Shown here: positions 22,202 to 24,265 of the stretch, one piece after another
How positions within the stretch are numbered: position 1 is the first letter of the stretch
Layout of the letters: every line of letters starts with the position of its first letter
NCBI GenBank assembly: GCA_016234485.1
Contig: JACRBL010000040.1
Coordinates: 124,001 to 188,000 of the forward strand
DNA length: 64,000 nucleotides
DNA from: Chloroflexota bacterium
Lineage (GTDB): Bacteria > Chloroflexota > Anaerolineae > Anaerolineales > Villigracilaceae
Direction of reading: 5' to 3'
The notes under the pieces: generated by a model
What the model saw: the letters and a program-made list of their open reading frames with translations, nothing else
Told to the model about the DNA's origin: nothing
Database searches by the model: none
Position numbers and translations under genes: made by a program

Positions 22202-23500
22202 ATGACAAACTCCCGAATCGCCGGATTTTACAACCAGACTCTCGCCCAACGCCGCGCCAACCTACTGGACGCAACGCATCTGACCGACCGCGAGCTGGCC
22301 GCGTGGACCTCGGGCGGACTCTCCCCCGAATCCGCCGACCACATGATCGAAAACGTAATCGGCCTGCACTCGCTCCCCCTCGGCATTGGACTCAACTTCC
22401 AGGTGAACGGCCGCGATGTCCTCGTCCCGATGGCAATCGAGGAACCGTCCGTCGTGGCGGGCGCCTCGTTCATGGCGAAACTCGCACGCGCGGGCGGCGG
22501 ATTCCATGCCACCGTCTCTGCCCCGCACATGATCGGACAGATGCAGGTTATCAACCTGCCGAATATCAATGAAGCACGCCTGAAAATATATGAGCACAGA
22601 GCCGAACTGCTGGCCGAAGCGGACACGATTGACCCCGTCCTCAAAAAATTCGGCGGAGGAGCAAGAGACCTCGAAGTTCGAATTATCGAATCATCGCCCA
22701 TCGGAGCGTTCCTCGTTGTTCATCTAATCTACGATGTGCGCGACGCGATGGGCGCAAACGCCGTTAATACCGCCTGCGAAAAACTCGCCCCACAAATTGA
22801 AGCCATCACGCGCGGAAAAGTTCATCTCAAGATTTTGTCCAACCTCGCCGATCGCAGACTGGCCCGCGCCCGTTGCACTATCCCCGTCAGCCAGTTGACC
22901 GTGGGATTCGAATCCTTCAAAGGCGAGACCGTCCGCGACGGCATCATCGCCGCCTGGGCGTTCGCGGACTCTGACCCGTACCGCGCCGCCACGCACAACA
23001 AAGGCATCATGAACGGCGTGGACGCGGTCGTTATCGCCACGGGCAATGACTGGCGCGCCATCGAAGCGGGCGCGCACGCCTACGCCGTGAAGAACGGCAA
23101 GTACACGTCACTTTCCACCTGGGGCAAGGACGCGGACGGCAACCTGGTGGGCACGCTCGAAATGCCGATGGCCGTGGGAATCGTCGGCGGCGCGACCAAA
23201 GTCCACCCTGCCGCGCAAGCCGCGGTGAAACTGATGGGCGTGAAGACCGCCAACGAACTGGCCGAGATCATCGTCTCGGTGGGACTGGCGCAAAACCTGG
23301 CCGCCCTGCGCGCCCTCGCCACCGAAGGCATCCAACGCGGACACATGTCCCTGCACGCGCGTCAAGTCGCCATCGCCGCAGGCGCGAGCGGTGACATGAT
23401 CGATAAGGTTGCGGCGCAGATGGTGGCGGAGAAGGTGGTGCGGAGTGATCGAGCGGAGGAGATATTGAAAACGTACACAGGTACACACGTAAACACGTAA
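22202..23500 (+). CDS. mvaA: Hydroxymethylglutaryl-CoA reductase, class II (MvaA type)
   Basis: A 432-residue enzyme that reduces HMG-CoA to mevalonate (or the reverse). Class II features are visible: the N-terminal ENVIGLHSLPLGIGLNFQVNGRDVLVPMAIEEPSVVA (ENVIG and the catalytic Glu), DAMGANAVNTACE (the DAMG-N motif), and a C-terminal QNLAALRALATEGIQRGHMSLHARQVA with the catalytic His. Degradative and biosynthetic class II enzymes cannot be told apart here, but HMG-CoA synthase and a thiolase homologue lie 1.5-4 kb downstream, favouring isoprenoid synthesis. The last codons (GTHVNT) and the stop lie inside an octamer-repeat element. Confidence 0.93.
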   Translation: MTNSRIAGFYNQTLAQRRANLLDATHLTDRELAAWTSGGLSPESADHMIENVIGLHSLPLGIGLNFQVNGRDVLVPMAIEEPSVVAGASFMAKLARAGGGFHATVSAPHMIGQMQVINLPNINEARLKIYEHRAELLAEADTIDPVLKKFGGGARDLEVRIIESSPIGAFLVVHLIYDVRDAMGANAVNTACEKLAPQIEAITRGKVHLKILSNLADRRLARARCTIPVSQLTVGFESFKGETVRDGIIAAWAFADSDPYRAATHNKGIMNGVDAVVIATGNDWRAIEAGAHAYAVKNGKYTSLSTWGKDADGNLVGTLEMPMAVGIVGGATKVHPAAQAAVKLMGVKTANELAEIIVSVGLAQNLAALRALATEGIQRGHMSLHARQVAIAAGASGDMIDKVAAQMVAEKVVRSDRAEEILKTYTGTHVNT

Positions 23501-23543
23501 ACACATCCCTGTATACTTGTATACCTGTTTACCTGTATACTTC
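23471..23543. repeat. Octamer-repeat inverted element at the 3' end of mvaA
   Basis: The left arm has units ACGTACAC, AGGTACAC, ACGTAAAC and ACGTAAAC. After ACATCCCTG the right arm has TATACTTG, TATACCTG, TTTACCTG and TATACTTC. The arms are imperfectly complementary. The element contains the mvaA stop (23498-23500) and ends six bases before the next start codon. Confidence 0.7.
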
Positions 23544-23548
23544 CACCC

Positions 23549-24265
23549 ATGACCACCGCCCTCCTCTGGCAAGTACGCCACTTCATTTACTCCCACCTCG
23601 TGGACACGACCCTTCCCCCGAGCGTGGACGAGACCGCGCGTCACTTTAACATCAGCGCAGAAGAGGCAGGCGCGCTTTACAAAGAATTAGCGGATCGCCA
23701 TGCCATCTTCCTCGAGCCAGAGACCCTCACCGTCCGCATGGCGTGGCCATTCTCAGGAGCGCCGACAGATTTCAAAGTCCACGCGGACGGAAAGACCTAC
23801 TTCGCCAACTGCGCCTGGGATATGCTCGGCATCCCCGCCGCGCTTCACACGGACGCGGTCATCGAAGCCGTGTTCACCGAAAGCAACGAACCTGTCCAAC
23901 TCGAAATCAAAAACGGACAAATCGCCAATTCCCAATCTACCGATTCCCAATTTACCAACTACCAATCTACCAATCCCCAACCCCTCGTCCACTTCCCCCT
24001 CCCCTTCGCCCGCTGGTACGATGACCTGGTCTTCACCTGAGCGACCATGCTTCTCTTCCAGTCGGAAGAATGGATCGAAACGTGGAGCTTACGAAACCAT
24101 CTCGAACGCGGAGAAATTCTCACGCTCCATCAAGTTTGGGAACTGTCCAAACTCTGGTACGGCAACCGCCTGTCCGTGGATTATCATGGCAGAAGCAAGG
24201 AACAGGTTGCAGAGATTTTCAAGCAGGTTGGTTTGACGTCAAAGTTTTGGGATGTGTCACAATAA
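23549..24265 (+). CDS. Organomercurial-lyase (MerB)-like selenoprotein with in-frame UGA
   Basis: Two open frames in the same phase, 163 and 72 residues, are separated by one TGA at 24038-24040 and join into a 238-residue MerB-family protein. The N-terminus is a winged-helix-like domain (SVDETARHFNISAEEAGALYKELADRHAI). Cys88 and Asp91 in ANCAWDMLGI match the catalytic CxxD of MerB (Cys96, Asp99). The TGA is codon 164 in RWYDDLVFT-U-ATMLLF, where relatives have the second catalytic cysteine. The distal part (LLFQSEEWIETW...LHQVWELSKLWYGNRL) is the normal C-terminus of the family and has no SD of its own. A hairpin with a normal SECIS position follows the TGA. Residues 126-146 come from a heptamer-repeat insertion. 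A plain nonsense mutation is the main alternative. Confidence 0.8.
24041..24075 (+). promoter_or_regulatory. Candidate bacterial SECIS element
   Basis: Directly after the UGA, TCTTCC (24054-24059) pairs with GGAAGA (24064-24069) around the loop AGTC. The loop starts 19 bases after the UGA and has G in its second position, both within the known bacterial SECIS limits. A C-bulge below the stem allows one more pair. Confidence 0.55.

Follow-up and report, generated by a model that had tools for sequence, protein, structure and literature searches.

The closest described relatives of the protein presented here are the organomercurial lyase MerB and MerB2 (PF03243; solved structures 3f0o and 5c17), with which it shares the fold, the order of the domains and the positions of Cys96, Asp99 and Cys159. 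It differs from them in having a predicted selenocysteine (Sec) at the 159 position, and its identity to plasmid MerB is 18-19%. In contrast to the organomercurial lyase, it also scored far below the cut-offs of both MerB equivalog models (NF009710, 36.7 bits against 193; NF033555, 28.9 bits against 200), and its gene does not lie beside merA.

Predicted selenoproteins have already been listed in this family. One table line of PMC7435645 gives 'Organic mercuric lyase MerB2' among predicted selenoproteins, one of PMC9312934 gives 'Alkylmercury lyase MerB-like protein', and SaoL (NF040728) appears in the available text of PMC13188914 as a predicted selenoprotein with the motif CU. The earlier note on this DNA had not regarded the family as an established selenoprotein, and these entries correct that statement. 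The MerB2 and MerB-like entries are predicted Sec-containing MerB relatives and may include members of the clade described here. They were compared by a table line each, and those lines do not describe the clade, its SECIS element or a form with two Sec residues. SaoL (e.g. WP_238493467.1), a MerB-like organometallic lyase, has the MerB family and a predicted Sec in common with our protein. Its model was the nearest NCBIfam model, but our protein reached 57.9 bits where the cut-off is 140 and was therefore not filed as SaoL (the other Sec forms scanned reached 25-48 bits). The motif also differs, being TU here and CU in SaoL as given in the available text of PMC13188914, and the match to the SaoL model ends before the Sec site.

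A MerB-fold protein with one in-frame TGA

The window (i.e. the whole stretch of 64,000 nucleotides that was analysed) contains a frame at 23549-24265 on the + strand that is open except for a single TGA at 24038-24040, in agreement with the earlier description of two in-phase frames split by one TGA. When this TGA is read as U, it gives U164 within VFT-U-ATMLLF. The features of the locus are as follows.

22202-23500, + strand: HMG-CoA reductase, upstream neighbour, outside the Sec system (conserved neighbour in close relatives)
23549-24265, + strand: predicted Sec-containing MerB-family gene, 238 residues, TAA stop (frame read with TGA as U; continuous across the TGA in >100 relatives)
23549-23743, + strand: residues 1-65, an N-terminal part resembling the winged helix of MerB and LexA-type folds (seen in the AlphaFold model and its structural matches)
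23810-23812, + strand: Cys88 codon, counterpart of MerB Cys96 (alignment with E. coli plasmid MerB; invariant in the alignment of relatives, A1)
23819-23821, + strand: Asp91 codon, counterpart of MerB Asp99 (alignment A1 and alignment to MerB)
23925-23980, + strand: in-frame minisatellite, 15-bp unit, 3.7 copies, encoding a disordered insert (absent or partial in the relatives of alignment A1)
24038-24040, + strand: UGA with strongly supported reading as Sec164, counterpart of MerB Cys159 (column comparison, SECIS comparison, MerB alignment)
24054-24069, + strand: bacterial SECIS hairpin TCTTCC-AGTC-GGAAGA (pairing comparison of Sec and Cys forms)

The Pfam MerB domain (PF03243) was found to run from residue 68 to residue 205, across the TGA, with E 7e-25 and 87.9 bits (cut-off 27). 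This match above the gathering score, together with the MerB fold, bore out the assignment to the MerB family. The Pfam scan did not detect HTH_15 in the protein. An AlphaFold model built with 22 relatives had a mean pLDDT of 92.4 and a pTM of 0.89. Its best match among solved structures was MerB2 (5c17; Z 18.7 over 192 residues, 3.3 A), which was also the only sequence match in the PDB, and MerB (3f0o) was matched with Z 15.6. In an alignment with four plasmid MerB sequences, Cys88 fell on Cys96, Asp91 on Asp99 and the TGA exactly on the Cys159 column (in the established numbering of MerB residues). Both claims made earlier, that Cys88 and Asp91 are kept and that the TGA occupies the Cys159 position, were thus confirmed. 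The TGA column is the first of two adjacent cysteines in E. coli MerB. Asp91 was kept in 100 of the 101 distinct relatives that carry Cys88 and Sec164.

In close relatives (Anaerolineales) the gene sits after HMG-CoA reductase, and in others it lies among unrelated housekeeping genes; another group has neighbours that resemble rpsB, tsf and pyrH, as judged by their first residues. Clustering of the recurrent neighbours gave no theme common to the groups that could serve as a clue to function. Two 8-bp tandem arrays precede the window gene, within 23471-23540.

Selenocysteine as the probable reading of the TGA

Within the window TGA also terminates, as an ordinary stop, at least three other genes (for a thiolase, a histidine kinase and an acyltransferase). 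A changed genetic code is thereby ruled out, and we rejected that reading.

Relatives were read from 396 searched genomes of the class, from 80 named contig loci and from a phylum search. Presence within the class was patchy (any match in 44 of the 396 genomes, about 11%), and nearly all full-length matches of this search had one in-frame TGA. We observed that the TGA always stood at the MerB Cys159 column in 110 distinct TGA-bearing relatives. All other complete relatives read had Cys at this column, as the earlier note had anticipated for homologues (with UGA in other Chloroflexota), and no third residue occurred. A sequencing error, another objection that the note had raised, is excluded because the TGA recurs in over 100 distinct relatives. 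The pooled dN/dS over 16 pairs of relatives was 0.17 before the TGA and 0.18 after it; by this sequence comparison, selection on the part downstream of the TGA is purifying. Truncated copies of the gene, in which the C-terminal part alone matches, were seen in two relatives of the window genome (L052, G148:C10; L058, G179:C11).

The 5' arm of the hairpin (24054-24059) starts 13 nt after the UGA, and the AGTC loop (24060-24063) starts 19 nt after it. The earlier note had let the hairpin itself start at 19 bases, so the hairpin and the place of its loop stood, but not the start of the arm. Taken alone, the window hairpin was weak and unremarkable (fold z-score -1.75), and it becomes significant only when compared with its homologues. 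The 110 distinct Sec forms had a stem of CTTCC-loop-GGAAG, the loop being GGTC in 83, AGTC in 22 and GTGA in four. The six inner pairs were 90-100% paired in these Sec forms, as against 32-68% in 25 Cys forms, and compensatory changes from C-G to T-A were seen on both sides of the stem in Sec forms. In the Cys forms the loop varied freely and the conserved hairpin was lost. SECIS was not among the entries of an Rfam scan of the window at gathering thresholds, and nothing was concluded from that scan.

The window genome encodes SelA (558 bits), SelB (343 bits), a tRNA-Sec (anticodon TCA) and a Sec-containing SelD, whose own gene has an in-frame TGA. All four components for which the earlier note had proposed a search (selA, selB, selC and selD) were therefore present, including SelB and tRNA-Sec, whose absence it had named as counter-evidence. 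SelB was found in 50 of 54 Sec-form genomes and in none of five close Cys-form genomes (Fisher P 2.5e-5). SelA was tested in 16 genomes and was found in all ten with the Sec form and in none of the six with the Cys form (Fisher P 1.2e-4). The four Sec-form genomes in which SelB was not found (three of them 64-85% complete, and G612, 98% complete) all have SelA.

Two readings would do without Sec. One takes the TGA as a true stop in a gene broken by decay or by a sequencing error; in its favour, a separate ribosome-binding site is lacking for the stretch downstream of the TGA, and G148 and G179 carry fragmentary copies. The same TGA, however, stands in the more than 100 distinct relatives with the reading frame conserved and with dN/dS at 0.18 beyond it, and we rejected both the pseudogene and the sequencing error, with next to no probability left to them, as already refuted by conservation. 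The other reading supposes two proteins, the first ended by the TGA and the second started at the in-frame ATG (24047) two codons past it. The MerB core domain would thereby be divided. Since the Cys-bearing homologues each have one unsplit open frame, and since the hairpin goes with the TGA, this reading was also rejected as extremely improbable. Together, conservation, SECIS, machinery, co-occurrence and selection agree with the claim of selenocysteine made earlier. On this comparative evidence from sequences, the reading of the UGA at 24038 as Sec is strongly supported, and the product of the window gene is very probably a real selenoprotein, as predicted.

Distribution, history and double-Sec relatives

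The Sec forms were found mainly in Chloroflexota, with a few elsewhere in MAGs recorded as Acidobacteriota (two), Gemmatimonadota (one), Myxococcota (one) and Thermomicrobiota (two). Among the viral contigs searched there were zero relatives. A tree of 75 proteins (careful search, 200 bootstrap trees) grouped the Sec forms apart from plasmid MerB (support 99/96). Six Cys sequences fell inside the Sec group, and four of these formed a clade of one family (f67) that was sister to a Sec form (100/95). The source genomes of all six had no SelA or SelB match. The simplest reading is that Sec would be ancestral and that Cys came later, upon loss of the machinery, although the tree alone leaves the root unset. 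One Cys form, from a genome without detected SelA/SelB (L048, G270:C3), has Cys at the Asp91 column as well (GNCAWC).

Eight distinct sequences from 6 genomes had a TGA at both catalytic cysteine columns. In one lineage (L050, L051, L175, L185, L188 and L189) the first site reads UGxE or UGxD, and the second site then MNLFRSEEH or MHLFRSEEH. The other lineage (L190 and L191) has YAAUAIDAIA, then FURxSxFFWSEEH. The two lineages were joined in 0 of 200 bootstrap trees. The second TGA of these double-Sec forms is accompanied by the same kind of SECIS as in the single-Sec forms. A hairpin can also be drawn after the first TGA and is a candidate SECIS, not a proven one, because its conservation may stem from the protein sequence. 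On balance we lean towards a MerB family that includes predicted Sec/Sec enzymes, in two lineages, beside the broad one-Sec clade that holds the window gene. To our knowledge, double-Sec MerB proteins have not been described before, the key SaoL papers lying outside our coverage.

Several other unusual relatives were seen. The genome that carries L191 (G387) belongs to the same family as the window genome. The double-Sec frame of L050/L151 (G173:C67) continues without a stop into AAA-type ATPase-like sequence, possibly as a fusion. L192 (G454:C14:13679-14038) has a single Sec in LUCKIYYFAS, with UC at the 159/160 positions, and is seemingly another, separate Sec form. Finally, L034 and L117 (G181:C102) have a further in-frame TGA (GWUQAH), at a column that is Cys in most relatives; it was seen in this one genome only, with no clear SECIS downstream.

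Proposed function

We consider it probable that the window gene encodes a MerB-fold protein with a SECIS-aided Sec164, made with the genome's own Sec machinery, that would act as an organometal lyase by analogy with MerB. The UGA at 24038 would be decoded as Sec through the downstream SECIS by SelA, SelB, SelD and tRNA-Sec of the genome, and the set Cys88, Asp91 and Sec164 would replace Cys96, Asp99 and Cys159 in the MerB fold. If the analogy holds, the Cys88 thiolate and the Sec164 selenolate would grip the metal of an organometal cation, while Asp91 would give a proton to the carbon, and the hydrocarbon would then leave. Selenium has a far higher affinity for mercury than sulfur has. Compared with Cys, Sec would bind soft metals (e.g. 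mercury) more tightly and be ionised at lower pH, and it would perhaps release the product more slowly.

A MerA search (threshold E 1e-120) gave no match above threshold in the window genome. MerA exceeded the cut-off in 3 of 39 Sec carriers and in 45 of the 357 other genomes of the class, i.e. without enrichment in the carriers, and a link to the mer operon via MerA was rejected, as no association was found. A link to mercury methylation was likewise rejected, since HgcA was above cut-off in only 2 of 53 carriers. Cys-type MerB was seen within a few kb of merA in G326, G171 and G046 (the last a weak partial match). In G171, the Cys-type MerB lies beside merA on C140 and the Sec form on a separate contig, C89. 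The window enzyme is stand-alone, chromosomal and outside a mer operon. Mercury is unproven as its substrate, because the clade is unlinked to merA, and for a stand-alone, non-mer gene the natural substrate may be organomercury traces or another organometal(loid). Classical mercury resistance fits less well than background demethylation of mercury, or than a role on another organometal(loid).

It seems rather doubtful to us that a MerB-fold selenoprotein would have other chemistry here, with Cys88 and Sec164 paired for redox work (selenenyl sulfide) or for binding metal in a sink or chaperone role. Asp91, kept almost without exception, would be needless for a pure redox or binding role, and the match to MerB folds extends over the whole protein; these points stand against the missing link to merA or HgcA, the unrelated housekeeping neighbours that differ between families, and the redox activity thought usual for most known selenoprotein families in the available text of PMC9312934. 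The enzyme might also be an organometal lyase with a natural substrate other than mercury (e.g. an organotin, organoarsenic or organoselenium compound), though we would not expect this. The gene is stand-alone, and the arrangement in G171 suggests a separate job for the Sec form; on the other hand, no substrate-specific partner gene was found, and the affinity of selenium for mercury would be the simplest reason for Sec.

Evolution has seemingly put selenium where an organometal lyase grips its metal. With this locus a group of MerB relatives comes into view that is chromosomal and lies outside mer operons, and whose genes are cut in two when annotation takes TGA only as a stop. What is new, within a family already listed among selenoproteins, is the predicted Sec at one catalytic cysteine here and at both in some distant relatives, the eight double-TGA sequences being the newest point. 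If the double-Sec reading is true, one and the same active site exists in this family in natural Cys/Cys, Cys/Sec and Sec/Sec versions. With these versions, and with the closest Cys forms residing in genomes where no machinery was found, it would become possible to test directly how Sec is used outside redox chemistry.
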